Assembly (NCBI RefSeq): GCF_014699075.1
Contig: NZ_JACXAB010000013.1
Span: forward strand, 1-64,000
Source: Microvirga sp.
Lineage (GTDB): Bacteria > Pseudomonadota > Alphaproteobacteria > Rhizobiales > Beijerinckiaceae
Direction: 5' to 3'
Length of the DNA: 64,000 nt
Shown: piece by piece, positions 1,765 to 26,062 of the stretch
How the letters are laid out: each line of letters opens with the position of its first letter
How positions within the stretch are numbered: position 1 is the stretch's first letter
Position numbers and translations under genes: made by a program
The notes under the pieces: model-generated
What the model was told of the DNA's origin: nothing
Database searches by the model: none
The model's input: only the letters and a program-made list of their open reading frames with translations

Positions 1765-2061
1765 ATGACCAGCCTGTCACGCTCTGAGACCGACCAGCTT
1801 CGCCGCCTGGAGGAGATGCGCAAGGCCTTCGACAAGCTGCGGGCGGAGCGCATCCGCGCAGAGGGCGAGGTGGAGCGCTTGTCGCGTGAACTCGACCAAG
1901 CGCGCGCGCTTGCCAAGGCCGAACTCGGCACCGACGACGAGACGCAGATTCAAAGCCTGATCGAAGAAGCGCAGGCACGAAACGCCAAGCTCGCAGAGGA
2001 GTTCGGCGTCGCCTTGCGCGAGGTGGAGACGCGCCTCAGGCAGCTTGGAGACGAGCGTTGA
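1765..2061 (+). CDS. Small all-helical coiled-coil protein upstream of the Rad50-like ATPase
   Basis: A 98-residue protein, almost entirely charged heptad-like helix (LRRLEEMRKAFDKLRAERIRAEGEVERL is typical in composition) with no cysteine. Its stop overlaps the TTG start of the next gene (2058), so the two are translationally coupled. In a Rad50-type complex an extra coiled-coil arm would be needed to match the arm in the second half of the neighbour. This small protein could supply it, but that is inference. No Shine-Dalgarno is obvious beyond a weak GGAG region upstream. It is co-oriented with the ATPase and the Mre11-like gene as an overlapping trio (1765-4876). I see no specific family match. 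Confidence 0.7.
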   Translation: MTSLSRSETDQLRRLEEMRKAFDKLRAERIRAEGEVERLSRELDQARALAKAELGTDDETQIQSLIEEAQARNAKLAEEFGVALREVETRLRQLGDER

Positions 2062-3878
2062 TCCTGTCGTCCGCTACGCATGATGTCACCCGCGCGGAAG
2101 CGCTGCTCGCGCGCCTCGAAGGGCGGCGCGATGCCATCCGTACGCGGGTCGAAGAACTGACGCGCGAGATCGAGTTCGCCAAGGGCCGCCTTGCGGTCAA
2201 GGATGAGGTCGAGGCCTTCATCGAGGCCGTTCACGGCTCGGCGAGCCGCCGCAGCCTGTCGGCTTTCGAGACGCTGCTGACGGCGCTCGTGCAGGAGGTG
2301 CTGCCGGGCGAGAAGCCCGTGGCATTGGAGCTGTCGACGGAGCGGGGCCTTGCGTCCCTCGACATTTGCGTACGGCGCCCGGACGGCTCGCTCGAAGACG
2401 TGCTGGAGGACAATGGCGGTGCGCTCACCAACGTGATCGGCATGGCCCTGCGCCTGATCGCCGTGGTCAAAGCGGATGTTGCCCGCTTCCTGGCGCTGGA
2501 CGAGGCGGATTGCTGGATCGCGCCGGAGCGCGTGTCGTCCTTCTACACAGTGCTGGAAGATGGCGCGGCGCGGCTTGGCGTGCAGTGCCTCGCCGTCTCG
2601 CACCATGACCTGTCGCAGTTCTCCGGCAAGTTCCACATCGCGCGCATCGCCGGCGAGCCCGCAACCGGTGTCGAGGTGGTGTCCTCCGACACCAGCGCAC
2701 AGTGGGCCGATGCCCAGCCGGGCCTGCGCTTCATCCGCCTCGTCAACGTGCAGGCCTATACGGATGCGACGCTGCATCTGAGCCCCGGCGTCAACGCGCT
2801 GATCGGGCCGAACAACCGCGGCAAGTCCACCTTCATCCGTGCGCTTCGTGCAGTGTTCTACGGCGAGGCCCGCGACAGCCTGGTGCGCGCCGGCGCGAAA
2901 TCCGCCATGGTGGAGATCGGCGTCGCCGGGAAGCGCACTTTGCGCTTCACCCGCCAGCCGCGCCGCTCGCCCGTCAACATCTGGTCCTTGCATGGGGCGG
3001 ATGGCTCCGTTGTCGAGGAGCAGGGCATGCGCTACGAGACCGGCGGGCGTGCTGTGCCGGATTGGGTGGCCGATCTCATCCGCATCCGCAAGGTCGAGGA
3101 TCTCGACGTCCATATCGCACACCAGAAATTTCCCGTGTTCCTGCTCGGCGAAACGCCGTCGCGCCGCTCCGCGGTTCTCTCGATCGGCCAAGAGGCAGGC
3201 TATATCCGCGACATGCTCGTCATCCACAGAGAGCGCTGCCGCCGCGACAACGATCTCGTGCGAAACGGCGAGCGGGAACTGATCGCATTGAGCGAGACGC
3301 TCGACGGGCTCGGCGAACTTGAGCCGCTGAAGGAAAGGATTTCCGCTGCGCGCCGGCAGGCGGAGCGGTTAGCCGTGGCAGCGGCCCAGCTTGAGCGGCT
3401 GCAGAAGCATGCGGCGCAGCTTGCCACGATCCATCGGAGGCTGACATCCGCTGAGGCGCGCGCGCGCATCACCGAGGCCCTTCCTCCTGCGGAGCGGCTC
3501 GCCGATCTCACCCGTGCGGCCGAGCGCGCTCGCGAGCGTGAGCGCATCGGGCGGCAGGTCCTGCAACTCGGTCGTGATCTGAAGCGAAGCCAAGCGAGGC
3601 TGAAGGCGTTGCATGGCTTGCCGGAGGCCGTGCCGGCCCTTGAAAACACCGCCTCTGCACAAAATATTCTGAAGCGCATGAAGGATCTTCATGCGGCCTC
3701 TCAGATCGCTAAGAGCCGGATGACTCAAGTCGACGAGGGGCTAAAATCCCTGCAGGCCGAGATGGCGCGCCTCGTCGAGGAAACCGGTGGGCTGTGCCCC
3801 ACCTGCGGTTCGCCCGTAAAGCCCGAGACCCTGCTCGACCACCACACCCATTCGCCTATGGAGCGGCTCACCGCATGA
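2058..3878 (+). CDS. Rad50/SbcC-like ATPase with its two halves in reversed order
   Basis: A 606-residue protein. Visible in order: a short N-terminal coiled coil (about 10-60); a signature-like DNGGALTN (118-125); Walker B FLALDEAD (144-151); an H-loop SHH (181-183); then a second half starting with a strand-rich head and Walker A GPNNRGKST (250-258); a Q-loop candidate at Gln356; a long coiled coil (about 390-570); and a C-terminal CPTCG hook motif (Cys580, Cys583). In ordinary Rad50/SbcC the order is Walker A, coil, CxxC hook, coil, signature/Walker B, so this is the layout expected if the chain were cut at the hook and the old ends joined. The TTG start at 2058 overlaps the previous stop, and ATGA joins it to the Mre11-like gene. 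The role is probably DNA end or gap processing with that nuclease. The permutation is read from motif order only. Confidence 0.8.
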   Translation: MILSSATHDVTRAEALLARLEGRRDAIRTRVEELTREIEFAKGRLAVKDEVEAFIEAVHGSASRRSLSAFETLLTALVQEVLPGEKPVALELSTERGLASLDICVRRPDGSLEDVLEDNGGALTNVIGMALRLIAVVKADVARFLALDEADCWIAPERVSSFYTVLEDGAARLGVQCLAVSHHDLSQFSGKFHIARIAGEPATGVEVVSSDTSAQWADAQPGLRFIRLVNVQAYTDATLHLSPGVNALIGPNNRGKSTFIRALRAVFYGEARDSLVRAGAKSAMVEIGVAGKRTLRFTRQPRRSPVNIWSLHGADGSVVEEQGMRYETGGRAVPDWVADLIRIRKVEDLDVHIAHQKFPVFLLGETPSRRSAVLSIGQEAGYIRDMLVIHRERCRRDNDLVRNGERELIALSETLDGLGELEPLKERISAARRQAERLAVAAAQLERLQKHAAQLATIHRRLTSAEARARITEALPPAERLADLTRAAERARERERIGRQVLQLGRDLKRSQARLKALHGLPEAVPALENTASAQNILKRMKDLHAASQIAKSRMTQVDEGLKSLQAEMARLVEETGGLCPTCGSPVKPETLLDHHTHSPMERLTA

Positions 3879-4876
3879 TCCTGACTGGAGATCGTCTCAC
3901 CCCTGTTGCCTGCAACGGGATTCTCGTGATCGGGGATCCGCATGTGGGCTCGCGGCGTCCGGGGCGGCGCAAGGATGCCGTCTGGCCTCAGGCCGTGCTG
4001 GGCAAGCTGGAGCGCTGCGTTTCCATCGCCAATGAGCGGCAGCTGGCCGTGGTCATTCTCGGCGATCTCTTCGATCGGCCGGTCGAGACCGACATGGCGC
4101 TCAAGAACCAACTCGTCCGCATCCTGAAGAGCTTCCACCATCGACCCATCGTCAATGTGGGCAATCATGACATTCAGCATACCACGCTCACCGACAGCGA
4201 CTCGCTGGCGCTGCTTGGGTTGTGCGATGTCGTCGACGTGGTGGCCACATCCGCTCCCGTGGCCGAGTTCCAGATTGGCACAAGACGGATCGGTGTCGGC
4301 ATGACGCCGTACGGCCAGACGATTCCAACAGATGCGCGGGGCTCCTTTTCCGGGGCCGATCTCCAGGCCTGGTTCACGCATCACGACATTGCCTTCGACG
4401 GCGGCTATCCCGGCGCCGTCGCGCCCTTCGCGGTCGAAGGCTGCGATGTGCTGATCAACGGGCACATCCACAAGACCCAGAAGGCTGTTCTTGCGGGCCG
4501 GACACGCTGGCTCAACCCCGGCAACATCACGCGTCAGTCCGTCGATCTCGTGGATCACGTGCCGCGCGCCTGGATCCTTGACGGCAGCGGAGCGCTCGAA
4601 GCGCAGGCGCTGCCGTTCGAGAGCAATGTTTTCGATCTTACCGGACGGGTGGTCGATGCGGCCGACGAGGCGCTGGTGGCGCGCGAGGTGGAGAGCGCCT
4701 TCGTCACCCTGCTACAGGCGGAATCCTCGACCGAGCTGAAGCGCAGCGGCGACGGCTCGATCATCCGCGACGAGATCGAGGCGAAGTTTGCCGCCGACAG
4801 CACCTCGGATGCCGTGCGCGCCATCGTGCGCTCGCTCCTGGGCGAGGCCGTGGAGCGCCACGCCGCACAATCTTAA
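3875..4876 (+). CDS. Mre11/SbcD-like metallophosphoesterase nuclease
   Basis: A 333-residue calcineurin-like phosphoesterase. The metal-ligand motifs are present in the usual order: DPH (21-23), GDLFD (63-67), GNHD (96-99), a possible HH (169-170) and GHIH (196-199). These fit a two-metal nuclease core of the Mre11/SbcD type. The ~120 residues after residue 210 would form the capping and partner-binding region. The start at 3875 is set by the ATGA overlap with the Rad50-like gene. The 27 codons in the longer open frame upstream lie inside that gene. The pairing of a Mre11-type nuclease directly behind a Rad50-type ATPase is the standard MR/SbcCD arrangement. The 3' end overlaps by 4 nt the convergent gene at 4873. 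Confidence 0.85.
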   Translation: MILTGDRLTPVACNGILVIGDPHVGSRRPGRRKDAVWPQAVLGKLERCVSIANERQLAVVILGDLFDRPVETDMALKNQLVRILKSFHHRPIVNVGNHDIQHTTLTDSDSLALLGLCDVVDVVATSAPVAEFQIGTRRIGVGMTPYGQTIPTDARGSFSGADLQAWFTHHDIAFDGGYPGAVAPFAVEGCDVLINGHIHKTQKAVLAGRTRWLNPGNITRQSVDLVDHVPRAWILDGSGALEAQALPFESNVFDLTGRVVDAADEALVAREVESAFVTLLQAESSTELKRSGDGSIIRDEIEAKFAADSTSDAVRAIVRSLLGEAVERHAAQS

Positions 4877-5523
4877 AAGGCAAACGGGTCGGCAAAGGGC
4901 AGGCGGCGCCGACGCACCTGCGTCTCGGGCAGGATCGGGCGGCTGATGTCGACCGCAACCAAGCCCTCGCAGGCCAGCGCCAGAACGGCCGCCACACCAT
5001 CCTGCGTGTTCATCACGGCACTGGCGCAATCAACAAGCCGCATGGTGCCGAGTTCGTCGAGCTGGTGCAGGATGCGCACCCGGTCGCCGGCTGTCACCGG
5101 CGTGCGCTTGCAGGCCATGATCAGGCGCATGGTGGTAAAGCGCGGCTCCGCCCGGATGCTGGCTGCCGTCTCGATCAGGAAGGCGCGTCCGTCGGCGGCG
5201 GTGATGCTATGGATCGAAGCCGTGCGCAGGGGATGGGCGAGCAGGTCGTCGTCCGTCACCACGTCGATCAAGTAAGCCGACCCGTCGCGGACAATCTCGA
5301 AATCGGCCACATGCTCGACTGCCTCATCGCCGATGGTGAAGGTTGCCGGATCTGCCGGCGCACGCAGCGACTCCACGTCCGCATCAAGTTCGCAGAGCGC
5401 CAGGAAGTCAGCAATCAGGGCATTTCGCGTGAGAGGCGTCGCCGGGCGCTTGGCAGCCCGGCGGGCGCCGCCACGGCGGGCGGGGCGTCGATCCGATAGG
5501 TCGAGGATCGCTTGCGCGGACAT
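4873..5523 (-). CDS. Unknown protein with a possible TnsA/PD-(D/E)XK-like segment, SOS-type promoter
   Basis: A 216-residue protein I cannot name firmly. Residues around HVADFEIVRDGSAYLIDVVTDDD resemble the beta-hairpin core of TnsA and other restriction-nuclease-like folds (an Asp, then a beta-strand ending in an acidic residue). The Lys that usually follows in (D/E)xK is absent, so the site would be degenerate or rearranged. The N-terminus is Arg/Ala-rich. It is transcribed leftward from a promoter with an SOS box 82 nt upstream and converges on the Mre11-like gene with a 4-bp overlap. The context suggests a DNA repair accessory. Its function is unknown; the fold call is a low-confidence guess. 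Confidence 0.6.
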   Translation of the reverse strand: MSAQAILDLSDRRPARRGGARRAAKRPATPLTRNALIADFLALCELDADVESLRAPADPATFTIGDEAVEHVADFEIVRDGSAYLIDVVTDDDLLAHPLRTASIHSITAADGRAFLIETAASIRAEPRFTTMRLIMACKRTPVTAGDRVRILHQLDELGTMRLVDCASAVMNTQDGVAAVLALACEGLVAVDISRPILPETQVRRRRLPFADPFAF

Positions 5524-5887: not shown

Positions 5888-6559
5888 ATGAATACGACCG
5901 ATAAGAAAATCTCCGAGGTGCTGGCCAAGTTCGGTGAGCCGATGGCCGGCAATATCTGGCGGGTCCAGGGAACGGCCGTAGTCTACCACAAGACGCTTGA
6001 GCGCATTGCCGCCCAGGCCAATGTGGTCTTCGACGAGCCGAAGATCATCCGGGCCGAGCGCGACGAGGCGGTGATTCAGGTCACCGGCCGCATGGGCGAG
6101 CGGGTCGAGTGGTCGATCGGCGAGGCGCTGATCGGCGTGAACTACCGCGTCTCGGGCAAGCAGGCGGCCTATGTCTATGCCATGGCCGAGAAGCGGGCGA
6201 AGGACCGCGTGATCCTCAAGCTCATCGAACTGCACGGCTACGTCTATTCCGAGGAGGAAGCGGACGAGTTCAAGCAGGGCCGTCCGGGCTTTGCCGATCC
6301 GCATGTGGAGATCGAGAAGACCGAGCCTCAGACGCAGAAGGGCAGGGTCGAGGCTGCTGCCGCCGACGACAAGGTCGAGGACGATCTGAAGGCGAAGATC
6401 AAGAAGGCCAAGACCATCAATGCGGTCACGGACCTGATGCTCCATGCCGATACGCAGAAGGTGCTCGCCGAACTGCCGGAGGGCATCCGCGACGAGATCC
6501 GCGACTATGCCAAGGCGCGGCTGGTCGAACTCGGCTGGCCCACCAAGAAGGCAGCCTAA
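5888..6559 (+). CDS. Putative RAD52/DdrA-like single-strand annealing protein
   Basis: A 223-residue protein. The N-terminal ~125 residues have an alpha/beta layout ending in a long helix, AAYVYAMAEKRAKDRVILK (about 93-111), followed by LHGYVYSEEE. This is the pattern of RAD52/DdrA and related phage annealing proteins, where a helix with conserved Ala and Arg/Lys residues precedes a glycine-tyrosine turn. The middle (about 140-165) is a charged, probably disordered linker, and the tail (about 165-220) is a small helical domain. The ATG at 5888 follows GGATCGAGG. The SOS-type promoter C and the next gene, a RecD2-type helicase, support a recombination role. The family assignment rests on pattern only and could also be an unrelated conserved protein. 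Confidence 0.6.
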   Translation: MNTTDKKISEVLAKFGEPMAGNIWRVQGTAVVYHKTLERIAAQANVVFDEPKIIRAERDEAVIQVTGRMGERVEWSIGEALIGVNYRVSGKQAAYVYAMAEKRAKDRVILKLIELHGYVYSEEEADEFKQGRPGFADPHVEIEKTEPQTQKGRVEAAAADDKVEDDLKAKIKKAKTINAVTDLMLHADTQKVLAELPEGIRDEIRDYAKARLVELGWPTKKAA

Positions 6560-6650: not shown

Positions 6651-8840
6651 ATGCCGAAATCCTCCGCCATGGCTGCCTCCGATCAGGAGGCGCTGCTCCT
6701 CTCCGAACATCTCGTCGGCTCCATCGAGCGGGTGACGTTCCACAACGATGAAACCGGCTTCTGCGTGCTACGCGTCAAGGCGCGCGGGCACCGCAAGCCC
6801 GTTGTCGTCGTGGGGCATGCGCCCTCGGTTGCTATCGGCGAGGTGGTGGAGGCGAACGGCGGATGGCTTCACGACCGCAATCACGGGGTTCAGTTTCGCG
6901 CGAGCGAGCTGATGACCTCGGCGCCGACCACCGCGGAAGACTTGCAGCGCTTTCTCGGCTCCGGCCTGCTGAAGGGCGTTGGGCCCTCTCTCGCTCAGAG
7001 GCTCATTGCATCCTTTGGTGCGCGCATTCTCGACGTGATCGAAACGAAGCCGCATGAGCTGACGCGCGTGCATGGCATCGCGATGGCCAAAGCGCTCAGC
7101 ATCGGTGAGGCCTGGGCCGAGCACCGGGCGCTGAAGGACATTGCTGCCTTCCTCAATGCCCATGGCATCGGGGGCTTTCTGCTGACGCGCATCTACCGCG
7201 CCTATGGGGTTGGTGCCATCGACATCGTCAAAGCCAATCCGTACAGGCTCGTCCTCGACATTCCGGGCTTTGAGTTCGCGCTCGCCGATCAGGTGGCCCT
7301 GCAGCTCAATGTGGAGCCCACCGCTGCGATCAGGCTTCAAGTCGGTCTTGCGCATGTTCTCTCCGAGGCTGTCAAGGAGGGCCATTCCGGGTTGCCGGCA
7401 GAGGAGTTGCTGCGGCAGGCCAGTCGCCTGCTCGAAATTCCTGAAGCTGAAGTGAAGCCCGTGCTCGATGCGCAATGTGCGGCGGGTCAGCTCGTGGCCG
7501 ACGAACTCGATGGCCAGCGCAGCACCTTCCTGAAAGGCCTCTACGGTGCCGAGCTTTTCATCGCACAGCGCCTGAAGGAGATTGCCCAGGGACTGCACCC
7601 GTGGAACGGACTTGATAGCGAGCAGGTGATCGCCGAGGCTGAAGCAGCCATCGGCGTGTCCTACTCGCCGAGCCAGCGCGAGGCCCTGGCGTCCGCCTGC
7701 CGCTCGAAGGTTCTCGTGGTCACCGGCGGGCCGGGCGTCGGCAAGACGACCTTGATCAGGAGCCTGACCCATCTGTGTGCGCAGCATGAGCTGACGATTG
7801 CCCTGTGCGCACCAACTGGGCGCGCTGCAAAGCGGCTGTCGGAAAGCACAGGCCTTCCGGCCAAGACCGTCCATCGATTGCTGGAGGCCTCCGAGGGCGG
7901 CTTCCGGCGCAATGCGAAGATGCCGCTCGACTGCAACCTTCTCGTGGTCGATGAGACCTCGATGCTCGACATCCGCCTGATGGCAGCGCTGCTGCGTGCG
8001 CTGCCGGATGAAGCCTCGCTCGTTCTCGTCGGCGACGTGGATCAGCTGCCCTCCATCGGTCCGGGACAGATCCTGTCGGACATCATCGCATCCGGCGCTA
8101 TTCCCGTCGTGCATCTCAAAGAGGTGTTCCGGCAGGAGCGGGAGAGCCGCATCATCACCGTGGCCCATGCGATCAATCGCGGGCTTGTGCCTGACCTCGG
8201 GCACCAGCCGGATTCGGATTTCTACTTCGTCGAAGCCGATACGCCGTCCGAGGTCATGGCCAAGATGACCATCCTGATCCGCGACCGGATCCCGCGGCGG
8301 TTCGAACTCGATCCCGTGCGCGATGTGCAGGTGCTGTGCGCGATGAACCGTGGGCGCCTCGGCACGCATATGCTGAACGGAGAATTGCAGCAGCTCTTCA
8401 ATCCGCCGGGCCTTGAGAGCCTGCACCGGGCCGGCTGGAGCTATGGGCCCGGCGACAAGGTCATGCAGGTTCGCAATGACTACGAGCGCGACGTCTACAA
8501 CGGCGAGGTCGGCATCGTGCGCGAGGTGCGCCGCGATCACGGCGAACTCACCGTTGCCTTTGATGACAGGCTGGTGGTCTATTCTCTCCAGGAACTCGAT
8601 GAACTGGCTCTGGCCTACGCCGTGACGATCCACAAGGCGCAAGGATCCGAGTATCCTGCCGTGGTCATCCCGGTCGCCTTGCAGCAGGCCTCGATGCTGC
8701 GGCGCAAGCTTCTCTATACGGGGGTGACGCGGGCAAGCCGTTTGGTGATCCTCGTCGGCAGCCGGTCCGCCTTGGTTCAGGCTGTCGGCTCGGAAGAGGA
8801 GCCCCGCCTGTCCCGGCTCAGGCACTGGCTTGAGGCCTGA
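6651..8840 (+). CDS. recD2: RecD2-type (RecD/TraA family) ATP-dependent DNA helicase
   Basis: A 729-residue SF1B helicase, the usual length for RecD2. Domains in order: an N-terminal OB-like domain (about 20-90); tandem helix-hairpin-helix region (about 105-175); Walker A GGPGVGKTT (359-367); motif Ia APTGRAAKRL (387-396); Walker B VVDE (432-435); motif III GDVDQLPSIGPG (461-472); and a UvrD_C_2-type end with IHKAQGSEY and YTGVTRAS. RecD2 proteins are 5'-3' single-strand translocases that work outside RecBCD. ATG 6669 is an alternative start; neither has a clear ribosome binding site. It probably shares SOS-type promoter C with the annealase-like gene, with partial termination between them. 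Confidence 0.92.
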   Translation: MPKSSAMAASDQEALLLSEHLVGSIERVTFHNDETGFCVLRVKARGHRKPVVVVGHAPSVAIGEVVEANGGWLHDRNHGVQFRASELMTSAPTTAEDLQRFLGSGLLKGVGPSLAQRLIASFGARILDVIETKPHELTRVHGIAMAKALSIGEAWAEHRALKDIAAFLNAHGIGGFLLTRIYRAYGVGAIDIVKANPYRLVLDIPGFEFALADQVALQLNVEPTAAIRLQVGLAHVLSEAVKEGHSGLPAEELLRQASRLLEIPEAEVKPVLDAQCAAGQLVADELDGQRSTFLKGLYGAELFIAQRLKEIAQGLHPWNGLDSEQVIAEAEAAIGVSYSPSQREALASACRSKVLVVTGGPGVGKTTLIRSLTHLCAQHELTIALCAPTGRAAKRLSESTGLPAKTVHRLLEASEGGFRRNAKMPLDCNLLVVDETSMLDIRLMAALLRALPDEASLVLVGDVDQLPSIGPGQILSDIIASGAIPVVHLKEVFRQERESRIITVAHAINRGLVPDLGHQPDSDFYFVEADTPSEVMAKMTILIRDRIPRRFELDPVRDVQVLCAMNRGRLGTHMLNGELQQLFNPPGLESLHRAGWSYGPGDKVMQVRNDYERDVYNGEVGIVREVRRDHGELTVAFDDRLVVYSLQELDELALAYAVTIHKAQGSEYPAVVIPVALQQASMLRRKLLYTGVTRASRLVILVGSRSALVQAVGSEEEPRLSRLRHWLEA

Positions 8841-20264: not shown

Positions 20265-21983
20265 TCAGGCCTCCTGATCCTTCAACGGATGAACCTCCTG
20301 TTCGCCCCGCTCCAGGATTTTTTCGAGGGTCTCGATCCGGTCGGCCTCGGCTGCGGGCTTGTCCCAGCGGATGCGGTTGATGCGCGGAAACCGCATGGCG
20401 ACGCCCGATTTGTGCCGGGTCGAGCGCTGCAGCCCCTCGAAGGCCACCTCCAGCACGAGCCCCCGGTCCTTGCCGTATTCCACCTCGCGCACCGGGCCGA
20501 AGCGCTTGACCGTATGGTTGCGGACAAAGCGGTCGAGCTTCACCAGCTCCTCGTCGGTGAAGCCGTGATAGGCCTTGCCCACCGGCACCAGCTCCTCGCC
20601 CCCCGGACCGTCGCGCCAGACCCCGAAGGTGTAGTCGGAATAGAAGGACGAGCGCTTTCCGTGGCCGCGCTGGCCGTACATCATCACGGCGTCGACAAGG
20701 TACGGGTCGCGCTTCCACTTGTACCAGTAGCCCTTGGGGCGGCCGGGCAGATAGGGGCTGCTCGCCCGCTTCACCATGCAGCCCTCGATGGCATCCGCAT
20801 CGGGACCGGCCCCGACCGAGGCCGGATCCGCGCGGGCTGCGGCAAGGTCTTCCCAGGTCTCGAAGGGCACCATGGGCGAGAGGTCGATGCGCGGGTCATC
20901 GAGCCGGGCAACGAGGGCTTCCAGGCGCCGGCGCCTTTCGGCGAAGGGCAGGGCGCGCAGGTCCTCCTCGCCCTCGAACAGGATGTCGTAGACGCGCAGG
21001 TGAGCGGGAAACTCCGCGATGAGCTTCGGGGTCACGGCCTTCCGGTTCAGGCGCTGCTGGAGCACGTTGAAGGTCTGCACCCGGCCCTCACGCACGATCA
21101 GCAATTCGCCGTCGATGGCGCCCTCGAAATCGAGCGCCTCCACGAGATCGGGAAAGGCACGGGAGACGTCCTCGCCGGTGCGGGAGTAGATTCGCCGCAC
21201 CGGGCGCCCGTCGCTGCCGTGGCCTGAAGCCGCTTGGAGGCGGATGCCGTCCCATTTCCATTCGGCCATGAACTCGGACGCCTCGAGCTTCGCAAAGTTT
21301 TCGTCCTCCAGCGGATGCGAGAGCATGGAGGGGCGGAACGGCGCCGGGTTGCCGGATTCCGGTTTCTCGCCCCGGCCCTCGACCCAGGCGAAGAGATCCT
21401 CGTAAGGCGCCTCGAGCCCGTGCCAGACCAGCTCGACCTCGTCGGGCTCGATGCCCCCGAGCTGGGCGACGGCGGTTTTGGCCAGCCGCGCCGAGACGCC
21501 GACGCGCAGCTCCCGGGTGATCAGCTTGATCAGCGCCCAGCGCCCGGTCTCGTCCAGCGCATCCATCCACCCGGCGACCCGGGCCGGCAGATCGCTCTTG
21601 CTGGTGGTTGCCAGTGTCTCGATCACCTCGGTGAGGGTCGGCACGTGCGGCGGCGGGTTGTTGTGGCCGATGGTGGGGGTGCCGTCTACTTTCGCCGCTG
21701 CATCATGCCCCGGAGCGGGCCAGATCAGGGCCACGGTCTCCGCAAGATCGCCCACATAATGATAGGACATCCGGAACAGCTCCGGGTCAGTCCGCTCCTC
21801 CACGAGGCCGCGGATCAGGCCGGGCTTGGCTTCCTTGAACATCAGCGCGCCGGTCATGGCGGCGAGCGCATAGCCGCGATCGGGATCCGGCGTATGGCGG
21901 AAATAATCCGTGAGCAGCCGCAGCTTCGCGTTGCGGCGCGGCTCGTAGCCGAGGCGGTCGAGGAGGGCAGCGAAGCGGTTCAT
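20265..21983 (-). CDS. ligB: ATP-dependent DNA ligase of the ligase-associated repair cluster
   Basis: A 572-residue ATP-dependent DNA ligase. Motif I is KWDG (Lys243 is the AMP-accepting residue, in EWKWDGIRLQ). An N-terminal alpha-helical DNA-binding domain (about 1-200) precedes it and an OB domain follows (about 430-560). This branch of ligases is encoded with an Lhr-type helicase, an MBL-fold exonuclease and a PdeM phosphoesterase in many bacteria. Here the ligase overlaps the exonuclease stop by 4 nt (ATGA) and is followed 2 nt later by yjbQ. The gene symbol is used loosely. Confidence 0.93.
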   Translation of the reverse strand: MNRFAALLDRLGYEPRRNAKLRLLTDYFRHTPDPDRGYALAAMTGALMFKEAKPGLIRGLVEERTDPELFRMSYHYVGDLAETVALIWPAPGHDAAAKVDGTPTIGHNNPPPHVPTLTEVIETLATTSKSDLPARVAGWMDALDETGRWALIKLITRELRVGVSARLAKTAVAQLGGIEPDEVELVWHGLEAPYEDLFAWVEGRGEKPESGNPAPFRPSMLSHPLEDENFAKLEASEFMAEWKWDGIRLQAASGHGSDGRPVRRIYSRTGEDVSRAFPDLVEALDFEGAIDGELLIVREGRVQTFNVLQQRLNRKAVTPKLIAEFPAHLRVYDILFEGEEDLRALPFAERRRRLEALVARLDDPRIDLSPMVPFETWEDLAAARADPASVGAGPDADAIEGCMVKRASSPYLPGRPKGYWYKWKRDPYLVDAVMMYGQRGHGKRSSFYSDYTFGVWRDGPGGEELVPVGKAYHGFTDEELVKLDRFVRNHTVKRFGPVREVEYGKDRGLVLEVAFEGLQRSTRHKSGVAMRFPRINRIRWDKPAAEADRIETLEKILERGEQEVHPLKDQEA

Positions 21984-23164
21984 GCCGCGCCTCCTTGACC
22001 GCTCTCCTCATCCTCCCCTTGAGGGGGAGGATCGGCTTGTAAAGCCGAGGTGGGGTGATTGGCGCCGACACTCTTCGAGCTTGGCGCTTCCACCCCGCCC
22101 CGCTCGCCCTGCTCACGACCCTCCCCCTCAAGGGGAGGGTGGGCAGCCTCCTCCGCCTCGCCCTCGTCGCCGTAGCCCAGCATGTGCAGGGGGCGCGCTT
22201 TGATGCCGTGGGTGGTGCACCAATGGACCAGGGCATCCTCCTGCCCGTGGGTGACCCAGACCTCGCCGGCCCCGGTCTCCAGGATGGTGCGGCAGAGATC
22301 GTCCCAGTCGGAATGGTCGGAGATCACCAGCGGCAGCTCCACGCCCTTCTGCCGGGCCCGCCCCCGTACCCGCATCCAGCCCGAGGCGAAGCAGGTGACG
22401 GGATCGGGAAAGCGCCGGGACCAGATGTCCTGGATCGAGGAGGGCGGGCAGATCACGATGGCCCCAGCAAGCTTCGAGCGCTCGGCGGCCACGACCTTCG
22501 GGGTCTCGCCCAAGGGGATGCCTTCGGATTTGTAAAGCTCGGTCAGGCGCTCCATGGCGCCGTGGAGATGGATCGGTTGGTCGTAGCCCTCCTCGCGCAG
22601 GAGCGCCATGACCCGCTGCGCCTTGCCGAGCGCATAGGCCCCGACGATATGGGCGCGCTCGGGAAAGAGGGCGACGGAATCGAGGAGCTTGCGCACCTCC
22701 GCCCGCGTGTCCGGGTGGCGGAACACCGGCAGGCCGAAGGTCGCCTCGGTGATGAAGACGTCGCAGGGCACGACCTCGTAAGGAAGGCAGGTCGGGTCCT
22801 CGGCGCGCTTGTAGTCGCCGGACACGACGACCCGGGTGCCGCCGGCCTCGATGGTGATCTGCGCCGAGCCCAGCACATGGCCTGCCGGCGTAAACCGCAC
22901 GGTCACGTCGCCGACGCGGAGGCTCTCCCGCAAGGTTGCCTCCTGGGTCGCGTCGGCGAAGTCCTCGCCGTAGCGCACGCCCATGATCCGCAGGGTCTCT
23001 CGCGTTGCCATGACCGAGCGGTGGCCTGAGCGGGCATGGTCCGAGTGACCATGGGTGATCAGCGCCCGCTCCACGGGCCGGACCGGATCGATGTGAAAGT
23101 CGCCGAGAGGGCAGTAGAGCCCTTGCGGGGTCTGGGTGAGGATGTCGGTGGAACGCAGCGCCAT
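21980..23164 (-). CDS. Ligase-associated DNA exonuclease (MBL fold) with a repeat-derived tail
   Basis: A 394-residue metallo-beta-lactamase/beta-CASP-type nuclease. The metal motif HGHSDH (38-43) is intact, with further ligands in AGHVLGSAQ (around 112), the SGDYKR Asp and the C-terminal ISDHSDWDDL and WVTHGQED. This is the exonuclease of the Lhr/ligase/PdeM cluster. After residue ~341 the protein changes to a Pro/Glu/Gly-rich tail of 53 residues (HPPLEGEGREQGERGG onward) coded by a palindromic intergenic repeat at about 22005-22145. The natural C-terminus would be near GYGDEGEAEE. The tail overlaps the ligase start (ATGA). Confidence 0.9.
   Translation of the reverse strand: MALRSTDILTQTPQGLYCPLGDFHIDPVRPVERALITHGHSDHARSGHRSVMATRETLRIMGVRYGEDFADATQEATLRESLRVGDVTVRFTPAGHVLGSAQITIEAGGTRVVVSGDYKRAEDPTCLPYEVVPCDVFITEATFGLPVFRHPDTRAEVRKLLDSVALFPERAHIVGAYALGKAQRVMALLREEGYDQPIHLHGAMERLTELYKSEGIPLGETPKVVAAERSKLAGAIVICPPSSIQDIWSRRFPDPVTCFASGWMRVRGRARQKGVELPLVISDHSDWDDLCRTILETGAGEVWVTHGQEDALVHWCTTHGIKARPLHMLGYGDEGEAEEAAHPPLEGEGREQGERGGVEAPSSKSVGANHPTSALQADPPPQGEDEESGQGGAA
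22005..22145. repeat. Palindromic repeat (CCTCCCC/GGGGAGG family) inside the exonuclease 3' end
   Basis: CATCCTCCCC...GGGGGAGGAT near 22010-22032 forms a hairpin, and CCCTCCCCCTCAAGGGGAGGG (22119-22140 region) forms another. Between them lie GTGGGGTG and CACCCCGCCCC. It matches the layout of the repeats at 23531-23660 and 26704-26885. All of it is translated as the exonuclease tail. Confidence 0.7.
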
Positions 23165-23478
23165 GGGTGGGAATATAGGGTCCGGTTGGGGGATGCCAGA
23201 CTGGATAACGCCGAACCAGCGCCTTCGGGCCCGAGGCTGAGTGGCCTCAAGCCGTCAGGTCAATCGAGGGTGGCGCTCAGGGCAGCCCGGCTCGATGTGG
23301 TGTGGGATAAGTGAGAGCCAAGCTGCTCGTCACGCGCGGTTTGTTTCAGCGGACCTGGAGCAAAGCCAGGATCGGCCACCTGCGATCACAGGCTTGCGAG
23401 GCCTGCGGCAGGACCGCTCCTCGCCCCACTCTTGCGACGCCTCGCGAGCGCGCCCCTCATCGGACGAGGATGGGACAA

Positions 23479-23522
23479 GGTATAGCCGAGCTTAGGAGAG
23501 TTGTCAAGAACAAAATAGGAAC
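23479..23522 (-). promoter_or_regulatory. SOS-type promoter D for the exonuclease-ligase-yjbQ operon
   Basis: GAAC (23508-23511) and GAAC (23519-23522) are spaced by 7 nt. On the minus strand the box abuts TTGACA (23507-23502), followed by a 17-nt spacer and TATACC (23484-23479), a near-consensus promoter. Transcription would start near 23472 and give a leader of about 300 nt before the exonuclease start at 23164. I see no gene in that leader (23165-23470). Confidence 0.72.
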
Positions 23523-23530
23523 ATGCACCT

Positions 23531-23660
23531 TGCCCTCTCCCCTCTGCGGGAGAGGGTGACCCTCGCGTCAGCGAGGGTCGGGAGAGGGGCAGTGCTCAAC
23601 CGGACTTCCCCTCTCCCGGCTCACTGCGTTCGCCACCCTCCCCCGCACAGGGGGGAGGGA
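23531..23660. repeat. Palindromic repeat (CCTCTCCCC family), intergenic copy
   Basis: The segment holds a hairpin with arms CCCTCTCCC/GGGAGAGGG, a perfect 9-bp inverted repeat GACCCTCGC/GCGAGGGTC around 23557-23579, and a second CCCCTCTCC...GGGGGGAGGG pair. Layout is like the copies at 22005 and 26704. Confidence 0.7.
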
Positions 23661-23736
23661 TCGCGTTCCGCATAATGCACGCGATCCTGACTCGCCCTCG
23701 ACGTTCTGGATGACGGCAGTGGGATCACAAAGGGAT

Positions 23737-23829
23737 GTCATTCCCGGCGAGCGTAGTGAGGGAAGAGAATCCACTCGCACCCTCAGCGCCATGGATCCCC
23801 TTCCCGGCCTCACGGCCGCCGGGGATGAC
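23737..23829. repeat. Palindromic repeat (GTCATTCCCGGC family)
   Basis: GTCATTCCCGGC at the left end is mirrored by GCCGGGGATGAC at the right end. The centre holds GAATCCACTC and CAGCGCCATGGATCC. Related copies are at 25918-26005 and 29569-29668. The 745-bp gap 23165-23909 holds promoter D, this repeat and the one before it, and no gene I can support. Confidence 0.7.
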
Positions 23830-23909
23830 ACAGGCACGTAACGGCACGAGAGAGGCGTTAGGCGGAACACGTTGTTGACAGCCTCTCCGCTGTCCCGCAT
23901 CCACAAGCC

Positions 23910-24839
23910 ATGCCACCGACCTCGACCGTCCGATCCACCGGCGACTACCGCGCCGATCGCCGCTATGAATATGCCCGCGCGGCTTTCGATGAGCGCGATT
24001 TCGAGGCCGCGGCCGATCTGGCCCGGCAGGTGCTGGAGCTCGCGCCGGATTTCGCGCCCGCCCATGCCATGCTGGGGCGATCGCTCGCCGAACACGGCAT
24101 GCGGGCGGAGGCTGTGGACGCCCTGCGCCGGGCTCTCGCCCTGGAGCCTGCCGATGAGCTGGGCGTACGCCTCGACCTCGCCCGGCTCGGCGCGCTGTCG
24201 CCCGACGAGGCCATCACAGGCGGTTATGTGCGGGCGCTCTTCGACGATTATGCGCCGAAGTTCGACCAGCACCTCACCAAGAGCCTGTCCTATCGCGGAC
24301 CGGAGCTGATCGCCGACGCGCTTCGCCGTGCCTGCTCCAGGCAGACCCGGGAGTATCGCTTCGGCCTCTCTCTCGATCTCGGTTGCGGCACCGGGTTGAT
24401 GGCGCAGGCGCTTAAGGGGCTGTGCTCCTCCCTGGAGGGTGTCGATCTCTCCCCCGGCATGCTGGAGAAGGCGGAGAAGACGAAGCTCTACGACGCGCTG
24501 CACGAGGGCGAGCTCGTGTCGTTTCTCTCAGGCCGTGCCGGTGCGGAGGCCGACCTCGTGCTGGCGGCCGACGTGTTCGTCTACATGGCGGCGCTCGATG
24601 CCGCGTTCCGGGAGGCGCACCGGGTCTTGAAGCGCGAAGGGCTCTTCGCCTTTACCGTACAGGCCCATGAGGGAGAGGGCCTCATCCTCGGCGAGGATGC
24701 GCGCTACGCCCACAGTGAGAGCTACCTGCGGAAGCTCGCGGAGACGGTGGGTTTCACGATGGTGATCTTCGAGCGGGTCTCGACCCGGGAGGATCGCGGC
24801 GTGGCGGTTCCCGGGTTTTTGTGCGTGCTGCAGCGCTGA
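23910..24839 (+). CDS. TPR-containing SAM-dependent methyltransferase
   Basis: A 309-residue protein. The N-terminal ~100 residues are TPR-like helices (YEYARAAFDERDFEAAADLARQV, HAMLGRSLAEHG). A class I methyltransferase follows (about 145-300): motif I LDLGCGTGLMA, motif II EGVDLSPGMLEKA, VLAADVFVYM (motif IV-like) and a C-terminal FLCVLQ strand. Substrate is unknown; TPR-methyltransferase fusions of this type are common in Rhizobiales. It sits between the two halves of the split ligase/helicase repair cluster, with no sign that it belongs to it. ATG 23910 begins MPPTSTV. Confidence 0.85.
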   Translation: MPPTSTVRSTGDYRADRRYEYARAAFDERDFEAAADLARQVLELAPDFAPAHAMLGRSLAEHGMRAEAVDALRRALALEPADELGVRLDLARLGALSPDEAITGGYVRALFDDYAPKFDQHLTKSLSYRGPELIADALRRACSRQTREYRFGLSLDLGCGTGLMAQALKGLCSSLEGVDLSPGMLEKAEKTKLYDALHEGELVSFLSGRAGAEADLVLAADVFVYMAALDAAFREAHRVLKREGLFAFTVQAHEGEGLILGEDARYAHSESYLRKLAETVGFTMVIFERVSTREDRGVAVPGFLCVLQR

Positions 24840-24863
24840 CACTGCGGTTCCATCATCCTCAGT

Positions 24864-24965
24864 CCTCATCCTGAGGAGGTCGCTTAAGCGACCGTCTCGA
24901 AGGAGGTTCCAGTGCTCTCTGGAGGATCCTCAGAGACGCAGCTGCGCTGCTCCTCAGGATGAGAT
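24864..24965. repeat. Palindromic repeat (CCTCATCCTGAGGAG family), copy 1
   Basis: CCTCATCCTGAGGAG at the left is mirrored by CTCCTCAGGATGAG at the right, with inner GTCTCGAAGGA and GAGACGCAGC. Copies 2 and 3 are at 39858-39964 and 44813-44908. It lies between convergent genes 24839 and 24984. Confidence 0.8.
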
Positions 24966-24983
24966 TGTGTTTGTGGGAGCGGT

Positions 24984-25802
24984 TTATTCCACCGGCTTTG
25001 ACGGATGCGGCGCGCTCTCGTAGCAGCCCACCACCGACTGGTCGAAGTCGATGATCGAGCCGGTCATCATGCCGGATTCCGGCGAGGTCAGGAACGCCAC
25101 CGCGCGGGCGACCTCGTTTGGATCCAGGAGACGGCCGAAAGGCTGTTCCTTCTCGGCCTTCTCCAGCCAGCCGTCCTGGGCGCCGTGGTAGAGGCGCACG
25201 ATCCTGTCCTCGCCGGGTGTGTTCATCCAGCCGATGTTGAGGCCGTTCACGCGGATGCGCCAGGGCATGAGGCTGAACGCGGCGTTCTTGGTGAGCGTGG
25301 CAAGCGCCCCCTTCGAGCCGCAATAGGCCGAGATGAAGGGCTGGCCGCCATGGGCCGACATGGACAGGATGTTGACCATCGTGCCCTCGATCTTTTCGCG
25401 CCGCATGATCGTGGCGGCCTCCTGCATCAAGAAGAACGGCGCGCGCACATTGACCGCGAACATGCGGTCGAAGAGCTCCGGGGTGGTGTCGAAGATCGTG
25501 CCGCGGTCGGTGATGCCGGCGGCGTTCACCAGCACGTCGATGCGCCCGAAGACGCTGTCCGCCCGCCCGGTGACCTGGCGGGCCTCTTCGACGCTTTCGA
25601 GATCGGCGCGCACGAATTCCGTGTGGCAGCCCTGGTTGGAGATTTCGCGGGCCACCGCATGCCCGCGCTCCTCGTTGCGGCCGCAGATCACGATGCCCTT
25701 GGCGCCGCGCTCGGCCAGCGTGCGGGCAATGGCCTCCCCCACGCCTTGCGTGCCTCCGGTGACGACGGCGACGGCGTTCTGGAACTGGGTCTCGTGCGGC
25801 AT
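24984..25802 (-). CDS. Short-chain dehydrogenase/reductase
   Basis: A 272-residue classical SDR: the NAD(P)-binding TGGTQGVG (TGxxxGxG), NAAG, catalytic Ser in SMSAHG, and YCGSK (YxxxK). Short-chain dehydrogenases oxidise or reduce alcohols and ketones; the substrate is not evident. The start at 25802 (MPHETQFQ) follows GAGAGGAGCAACGCC. The longer frame to 25871 lacks a ribosome binding site. It is divergent from the Lhr-type helicase. Confidence 0.9.
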   Translation of the reverse strand: MPHETQFQNAVAVVTGGTQGVGEAIARTLAERGAKGIVICGRNEERGHAVAREISNQGCHTEFVRADLESVEEARQVTGRADSVFGRIDVLVNAAGITDRGTIFDTTPELFDRMFAVNVRAPFFLMQEAATIMRREKIEGTMVNILSMSAHGGQPFISAYCGSKGALATLTKNAAFSLMPWRIRVNGLNIGWMNTPGEDRIVRLYHGAQDGWLEKAEKEQPFGRLLDPNEVARAVAFLTSPESGMMTGSIIDFDQSVVGCYESAPHPSKPVE

Positions 25803-25917
25803 GGCGTTGCTCCTCTCAAGTGTTGTTTTTGGCATTGGAGCGACCTGAAAGGATCTCAAGCCGGATAGCAAGCTGGCAAGGGGAGGGGTTCACATGTTCT
25901 GATGAGGCACCGCCAGT

Positions 25918-26005
25918 GTCGTCCCCGGCGCCCGTAGGCCGGGAAGGGGATCCATGGCGCTGAGTGGATTCCCTTCTCCTCCGCTGCGCTCTGGCCGGGA
26001 ATGAC
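25918..26005. repeat. Palindromic repeat (GTC-CCCGGC family)
   Basis: GTCGTCCCCGGC at 25918 and GGCCGGGAATGAC ending at 26005 are inverted arms. The centre holds GGATCCATGGCGCTGAG, the inverse of the centre of the copy at 23737-23829. Confidence 0.7.
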
Positions 26006-26062
26006 AAGGGGGCGGTGCCCAGCCATAGCGGAACCATTCCGGGGGCCCTATCTTGAGGACTC

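Follow-up and report, generated by a model that had tools for sequence, protein, structure and literature searches.

The chains of Rad50 and SMC proteins run out to a hook or hinge and back, with the arm closed by covalent continuity. A three-gene locus in the alphaproteobacterium Microvirga sp. (NCBI RefSeq assembly GCF_014699075.1) raises the question of whether nature also tolerates a Rad50-like machine whose chain is open at the hook and joined up at the head instead. The locus lies on contig NZ_JACXAB010000013.1, within positions 1 to 64,000 of the forward strand, the 64,000-nucleotide stretch that was analysed and that we call the window, and encodes a small protein predicted to be helical, an ATPase and an Mre11-like metallophosphoesterase (Table 1). 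Our answer, to which we give a probability of a little over three in four, is that these proteins form a three-subunit Mre11-Rad50-like complex with a circularly permuted Rad50 chain, most likely derived from a split Rad50 whose C-terminal half (C-half) was fused before its N-terminal half (N-half).

An earlier note on this DNA had described three tightly overlapped open reading frames (ORFs), the second with a signature-like motif and Walker B first, then Walker A, a coil, and CxxC at the very end. The ORFs lie where it placed them, and the positions that it gave for DNGGALTN, FLALDEAD, GPNNRGKST and CPTCG (residues 580-584) are exact. The TTG start of the ATPase gene overlaps the TGA stop of the 98-residue gene ('TTGA'), and the likely start of the Mre11-like gene, ATG 3875 and not the alternative GTG 3794, overlaps the ATPase stop as 'ATGA'. 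At the other Microvirga loci, the coil gene and the ATPase gene mostly meet in TTGA or TGATG, suggesting that their translation is coupled; in Methylobacterium there is usually a short gap.

Table 1 Features of the three-gene locus, with window positions and residue numbers of the encoded proteins
Feature	Position	Strand	Remark
98-residue small protein, proposed separate coiled-coil subunit (descending arm)	1765..2061	+	proline-free, helical by sequence-based prediction
606-residue permuted Rad50-like ATPase: C-lobe, N-lobe, coil, terminal CxxC	2058..3878	+	
Rad50-head C-terminal lobe placed first (residues 1-221), with short N-terminal coil	2058..2720	+	profile matches
Signature-like DNGGALTN (residues 118-125)	2409..2432	+	G121, N125 invariant in 30/30
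Walker B FLALDEAD (residues 144-151)	2487..2510	+	D148, E149 invariant
H-loop SHHD (residues 181-184)	2598..2609	+	H182 invariant
Rad50-head N-terminal lobe, ascending coil and CxxC (residues 222-606)	2721..3875	+	AAA_23, phage N-half profile
Walker A GPNNRGKST (residues 250-258)	2805..2831	+	G250, G255, K256 invariant
Putative Q-loop Gln356	3123..3125	+	Q356 invariant; name assigned from position and invariance
CPTC hook motif (residues 580-583)	3795..3806	+	CxxC in 63/63 complete members
C-terminal His-x-His (residues 596-598), possible extra zinc ligands	3843..3851	+	
333-residue Mre11/SbcD-like metallophosphoesterase with C-terminal helical stretch	3875..4876	+	Metallophos E 2.1e-7

The unusual order recurs throughout the family. 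A scripted check found the signature-like motif, Walker B, Walker A and CxxC in this order in 63 of 67 scored members, a count that excludes 18 of the 20 loci L053-L072 (identical to counted rows) and 8 of 21 plasmid records; the four members missing it (L044, L048, L049 and L050 in our numbering of loci) all end at contig edges, and every complete member (63/63) is permuted. In an alignment of 30 family members with 22-90% identity to the window protein (A1), the invariant columns include, in order, G121, N125, D148, E149, H182, G250, G255, K256, Q356, C580 and C583. As a control we used seven stretches from relatives with a canonical SbcD, in four of which an SbcC ORF could be scored: Walker A, a mid-chain CxxC and then SGGE follow one another in all four, and in a fifth, L156, CxxC is mid-chain and SGGE late, the Walker A pattern being missed there. 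Gene order recurs as well, a small ORF upstream and a further ORF downstream flanking the permuted ATPase gene in 30 of 30 loci.

Because the two halves do occur as separate genes in phages and Firmicutes plasmids, one might suppose that two genes have been read here as one through a sequencing error, a missed frameshift being one way in which the earlier note had said its reading could fail. The frame, however, has zero in-frame stops in 42 near-full-length matches from the genus, the order is the same in the 63 complete members from many assemblies, and both halves have a low ratio of nonsynonymous to synonymous substitution rates (dN/dS). Across five Microvirga pairs, this ratio is 0.04-0.09 for the C-lobe, 0.09-0.16 for the N-lobe plus coil and 0.07-0.13 for the 98-residue gene, placing all three under purifying selection. 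Stop-free frames, recurring order and low dN/dS together rule out a frameshift or assembly artefact, whose probability we put close to nil.

Profile comparison identifies the first half of the ATPase as a Rad50 signature/Walker B lobe. A profile built from the family only (19 first halves) finds as its best matches in the Protein Data Bank (PDB) the C-lobe chains of P. furiosus Rad50 (3qkr_B, E 8.9e-6; 1ii8_B, 3.3e-5), and its top seven matches are all Rad50 entries; with four phage C-halves added, the values are 1.5e-8 for 3qkr_B (query 30-209) and 7.2e-8 for 1ii8_B (query 35-209). The worry that the first half might be no such lobe thus falls away. The second half matches Pfam AAA_23 at residues 226-462 (E 5.5e-11) and, weakly, the N-lobes of Rad50, SMC and RecN in the PDB. 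In hhalign comparisons, the permuted N-half aligns with the N-half of a phage split Rad50 over 398 columns that include the coil and reach the CxxC (E 3.6e-35), and the permuted C-half with the phage C-half (E 1.4e-18); against four canonical SbcC proteins the N-half match is far weaker (E 1.3e-8), and cross-lobe controls are not significant. The AAA_23 match and the alignment with the phage N-half rule out the second half as a plain P-loop false positive. The PHROGs families matched are phrog_15167 for the first half and phrog_16465 for the second, both of half length. The AlphaFold model of the ATPase has a mean predicted local distance difference test score (pLDDT) of 79.4, and its six best PDB matches in Foldseek are chains of Rad50 or Mre11-Rad50 entries. 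Since the permuted halves are far closer to phage halves than to canonical SbcC, and the cross-lobe controls fail, split halves appear to have been fused in swapped order; most simply, the permuted protein would be a split Rad50 whose C-half was set before, and fused to, its N-half. The two explanations that the earlier note had put forward, a permuted Rad50 and a fusion of phage-type split-Rad50 genes, are therefore both supported and hold together.

One example of the split form is Bacillus phage vB_BboS-125 (NC_048735), where the N-half gp32 (phrog_16465) and the C-half gp35 (phrog_15167) are separated by an AP2-domain gene and gp34 (78 residues) and followed by an unannotated Mre11-like ORF. 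This last ORF (L073:7250-8230) falls in a gap of the published annotation and has its ligands intact. All 28 loci retrieved with the phage C-half (vB_BboS-125, its IMG/VR copy and 26 further IMG/VR contigs) have N-half, coil, C-half and Mre11-like ORF in this order. Both halves of the permuted ATPase are homologous to the split phage Rad50 over most of their extent, the terminal CxxC (often with HxH) included, and both systems have a small helical gene and an Mre11-like ORF nearby; the phage N-half, coil and C-half are, however, three separate proteins, unfused and unpermuted, unlike the single gene in the window. Large Firmicutes plasmids (for example Paenibacillus polymyxa pSC2) carry the same parts, with a small gene before the C-half and CxxC near the N-half end, but unlike the window they have a free C-half and, in five of six sets, an N-half fused behind a phosphoesterase domain. 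Among seven such plasmids, five (L161, L163, L165, L166 and L167) have the phosphoesterase::N-half fusion, the small gene and the C-half, with an additional 57-residue gene in between in L161; in an Alkaliphilus plasmid (L164) phosphoesterase, N-half, small gene and C-half are four separate genes, and in a Jeotgalibacillus plasmid (L162) the C-half has no annotated N-half or phosphoesterase beside it. The phosphoesterase and N-half domains were confirmed in all five fusions and, as separate proteins, in Alkaliphilus. The genes of the five sets with a fusion carry no annotation beyond metallophosphoesterase, AAA family ATPase and hypothetical protein. Further C-halves occur alone in Microbacterium phage Magritte, with no N-half among the translated genes of its two ends, and beside an Mre11-like ORF in the metagenomic phage LR745208 (L168), with no N-half in the stretch read. 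A separate C-half was expected in Bacillus phage 0305phi8-36, and tblastn with two C-half queries gave no such record among the matches listed.

With canonical Rad50/SbcC the permuted ATPase shares Rad50-homologous head lobes, Walker A, Walker B, an H-loop, a CxxC at the coil end and an Mre11-like operon partner. The canonical proteins have N-lobe, coil, CxxC hook, coil and C-lobe in one chain together with an LSGGE signature, and the permuted ATPase has neither: the Ser before and the Glu after GG[AS] are absent in 29 of the 30 A1 rows, the exception being L078 with SGA. Nor are curated models passed, PRK03918 scoring 39.1 bits against a cut-off of 700 and TIGR00618 not being listed for the ATPase. 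We do not call the protein a Rad50, because it departs from Rad50/SbcC in two of the features that define that group, the order of the chain and the LSGGE signature. Rearrangement of the same pair has precedent on viruses and plasmids in the Mre11-Rad50 fusion proteins (Mimivirus R555 and others), in which Mre11 stands in front of Rad50 (PMC3175470); the passages of that paper on these fusions mention no permutation. One such fusion, from Bacillus phage 0305phi8-36 (A7KV18), is the best viral fold match. The earlier note knew of no Mre11-Rad50 complex with the permuted order, and none turned up in searches of open-access PubMed Central text, a scope from which subscription journals and bioRxiv are absent.

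These comparisons suggest a model for how the complex arose and works. Its ancestor would have been a split Rad50 as in a Bacillus phage, related viral contigs and large Firmicutes plasmids, made of a hook-ended N-half, a small coil protein and a C-half, and the C-half would then have been joined to the start of the N-half. In the resulting chain, the two lobes would come together in a single ATP-binding cassette (ABC) head. Two such heads would dimerise, with ATP bridging their Walker A and signature sites, and the Mre11-like nuclease would be bound by way of its C-terminal helices. A helix of about 96 residues leaving the N-lobe would pair with the short N-terminal helix of the ATPase and with the separate coil protein, while the tip beyond it, built largely in steps of about 40 residues, would end in CxxC...HxH. 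Such a complex could take the place of SbcCD, binding, tethering and nucleolytically trimming DNA ends in an ATP-gated manner.

For the arm, the evidence comes from gene order and from the lengths and breaks of the coil. In all 30 loci an ORF of 96-213 residues (longest ATG/GTG start) overlaps the start of the ATPase gene or ends no more than 90 bases before it, and in 22 of them this ORF resembles the window's 98-residue protein (phmmer), which itself has no Pfam family above cut-off. In the split sets of phages and Firmicutes plasmids, too, the C-half has a small gene in front of it. Synteny, purifying selection and this shared position make the coil protein a candidate for the missing stretch of the returning arm. 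Arms of alpha members are 160, 200, 238-240 or 279 residues long, apart from two of 233 and 247; in the arm region, at window 3195-3794, their lengths thus change for the most part by units of about 40 residues, and proline breaks fall at comparable places. In 28 of 30 members such a break is found 90-103 residues along the arm, with another proline near 40 in several, and the ATPase model predicts a 96-residue helix (378-473) and, after it, two more of 42 and 44 residues. On our reading, the coil protein would pair with the constant first arm segment only, and the tip would be a separate modular bundle.

At the tip, the CxxC at the coil end, known here from sequence, is followed in the 63 complete members by HxH in 55, by HxxH in two and by one or two isolated histidines in six, and many phage N-halves end likewise, e.g. 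CPLCESPMSFEHSH. Canonical hooks dimerise through the apex CxxC (PMC6969161). In the permuted family the additional histidines could form a self-contained zinc site, letting one chain hold its own zinc, or they might strengthen a hook between two chains.

The third gene bears out the earlier note's Mre11-type nuclease. Of its PDB profile matches, 20 of 21 carry the names Mre11, Rad32 or SbcD, are a DNA-repair chimera of these proteins, or belong to Mre11 entries under the label 'exonuclease, putative'. Its model (pLDDT 74.7) likewise has Mre11/SbcD entries as its 25 best fold matches; the curated SbcD model is not passed (TIGR00619, 17.8 bits against 77.65). The downstream ORF is similar to the window's protein in 27 of 30 loci. 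D21, H23, D64, N97, H98, H169, H197 and H199 are each present in all 16 non-gammaproteobacterial rows (15 from the family and one phage), so the nuclease ligands are intact in the window's clade. The seven gammaproteobacterial rows have lost H23 and H197 in seven of seven and N97 and H98 in six; D21 and D64 are retained in five, H169 in four and H199 in two. R32, F276, L280 and I301 are kept in all seven. C-terminal helices are predicted at 266-284, 295-308 and 312-332, mostly with pLDDT 49-69, and F276 is found in 22 and I301 in 21 of the 23 rows. Ligand-poor third genes lie on gammaproteobacterial large plasmids at L075:7730-8635, L077:7721-8614, L082:5616-6518 and L084:6859-7749, and less surely in L076, L083 and L085, where membership of the third gene rests on position and a forced alignment. 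The product of this gene is probably a catalytically dead Mre11-like partner; if these genes belong to the family, nuclease chemistry has probably been lost and the C-terminal, probably ATPase-binding, domain kept.

Several observations weigh against the proposed complex or parts of it, and the first group concerns the head and the partner. The permuted C-half has no hhalign match to a profile of only four canonical SbcC C-lobes; the signature is degenerate, without LSGGE, so ATP contacts in trans may differ; and three of 30 downstream ORFs (L076, L083 and L085) do not match the window's Mre11-like protein significantly in pairwise comparison. The predicted template modelling score (pTM) of the ATPase model, 0.53, leaves the mutual position of the lobes open, which gives room to an arrangement in which head dimers are swapped between chains, the C-lobe of one joining the N-lobe of another and the fusion linking heads. 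The lobe linker of only about 15 residues (about 208-222) would fit such a swap, and the split relatives suggest that lobes can associate without a covalent link. In the canonical Rad50 head, however, the two lobes that meet come from the same chain, and a short linker is enough. There being no direct sign of a swap, we consider it quite unlikely and favour a composite head made from the two lobes of a single chain.

A second group concerns the coil protein. Eight of 30 upstream ORFs (seven on gammaproteobacterial plasmids and one in Variovorax) have no significant match to the 98-residue protein. In hhalign, its family shows no detectable direct homology to the phage coil (probability 0.7%) and is weakly matched to the Firmicutes plasmid coil (18%, E 0.0013), while the Firmicutes and phage coils match each other with a probability of 98%. 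Nor does the length of the hook-side arm consistently follow that of the coil gene plus ATPase N-terminus: depending on whether the longest or shortest start codon is chosen, Spearman coefficients range from -0.16 (p 0.51) to 0.23 (p 0.34) in 20 divergent members and from 0.09 (p 0.65) to 0.45 (p 0.014) in all 30. The proposal in the earlier note that the 98-residue protein is the second arm thus draws support from synteny and none from consistent length covariation or detected phage-coil homology. The arm-length results could also fit a regulator or loader, with the ATPase coil folding back to bring its CxxC end near the head, and the helices of 42 and 44 residues could run back along the 96-residue one. 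Were the arm a strict zigzag, however, its last helix would point the other way after the gain or loss of a single unit of about 40 residues, and the small gene stands before the C-half in split and permuted sets alike. We therefore hold a regulator or loader to be somewhat unlikely, and keep the coil protein as the proposed returning part of the arm.

The genome setting bears on what the complex might do. In the window's genome the SbcD model has no match, compared with matches in 13 of 14 control genomes, and SbcC matches are only short and P-loop-sized. None of the 48 genomes of the genus passes the SbcD cut-off, and the permuted family may replace SbcCD in this lineage. As a further point against such a replacement, 21 of the 48 have sub-cut-off SbcD matches, 12 of them at E below 1e-10, which indicates that other Mre11-like proteins coexist in part of the genus. 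Among 101 relatives, nine pass the SbcD cut-off, and these have no family-level permuted-ATPase match among the matches listed, a contrast confounded by kinship.

The ATPase might instead serve in anti-phage defence or plasmid conflict, like Lamassu LmuB or AriA, and not in a DNA-end repair complex. Residues 238-588 of the window protein do match LmuB in PADLOC (E 4.9e-11), with which it shares a Rad50-like head and coil, and a Vibrio member matches AriA (E 2.5e-13). Most of the best 25 of 31 PADLOC matches to the window protein, however, cover the P-loop only, and the coil and Mre11-like proteins match nothing in PADLOC. Unlike in Lamassu, the partner is Mre11-like and the neighbouring operon proteins match no Lamassu model. 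The gene is present in 43 of 48 genus genomes with two conserved neighbour genes, and no effector was recognised among the scanned neighbouring proteins. A defence system was rejected on the PADLOC results, namely the unmatched partners and mostly P-loop-only matches, and we judge a role of this kind very unlikely. ATP-gated DNA-end tethering and processing would be the most likely function.

Homologues sharing the motif order, the search for which the earlier note had proposed, turned up in Microvirga, Methylobacterium, Aurantimonadaceae and 13 large proteobacterial plasmids. A pattern search extended with tblastn gave 52 genome-contig loci, among them one non-member (L051) and one fragment (L050). 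One of the 43 Microvirga copies is a contig-end fragment, and in Microvirga sp. VF16 (L015) the locus is chromosomal. Among 72,556 plasmid records the permuted ATPase occurs in 21, all of 253 kb to 1.32 Mb, and a search from the Pseudomonas member gave the identical 21; 13 of these loci were read. In a midpoint-rooted tree of 24 head regions, a gammaproteobacterial clade stands apart from an alpha/beta clade, and the chromosomal Microvirga, Methylobacterium and Aurantimonadaceae copies are nested in plasmid lineages, their sisters being Bosea plasmids; the length of several plasmid branches makes the deeper placements unsure. In a phylum sample, 363 of 398 genomes gave matches at E <= 1e-3, those listed covering mostly little beyond the P-loop region of other ATPases, and among the matches listed we read only G000 and G261 as family members. 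A class sample searched with the phage C-half profile gave one hit in 289, an ORF that has its N-lobe match first and its C-half match last and is thus not permuted. IMG/VR gave no permuted form, whether the query was the family alignment or a member from Pseudomonas, Alteromonas or Rhizobium, a weak negative because such scans use short peptide patterns only. One Microvirga genome has, besides its main copy, a second, divergent family-level match (35% identity over residues 17-473, in an 856-residue open frame) at G008:C33:234916-237330 on the minus strand.

A conserved family opened at the hook and re-joined at the head would mean that the opposite topology is tolerated in nature, and would provide a natural permutation experiment asking whether DNA entrapment and ATP gating depend on a covalent loop at the tip of the arm. 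Its recurrence on very large plasmids and some chromosomes bears on how ring-shaped DNA clamps assemble, and the probably catalytic-dead partners of one clade would separate tethering from cutting. Tentatively, and with rather less confidence than in the permutation itself, we picture an SMC/Rad50-type machine whose arm combines an open-ended permuted chain with a separate coil subunit and ends in a CxxC...HxH zinc tip that is complete in itself, and whose gammaproteobacterial plasmid version might be a nuclease-dead, ATP-driven DNA tether or organiser for its replicon.

Four large plasmids of Pseudomonas and Vibrio (L075, L076, L077 and L084) carry the operon beside an ATP-dependent (UvrD-type) helicase, a lytic transglycosylase and a DNA topoisomerase in conserved order. 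Downstream of the operon in the window, two ORFs at 4873-5523 (minus strand) and 5888-6559 (plus strand) have no Pfam family above cut-off and are each present in 44 of 66 loci examined; RecD2 (6651-8840) is near the locus in 27 of 66, many loci ending before it. Further along, at 20265-28759, an ATP-dependent DNA ligase, a beta-lactamase-fold protein and an Lhr-type helicase lie close together, an arrangement that resembles the ligase-associated DNA damage cluster.

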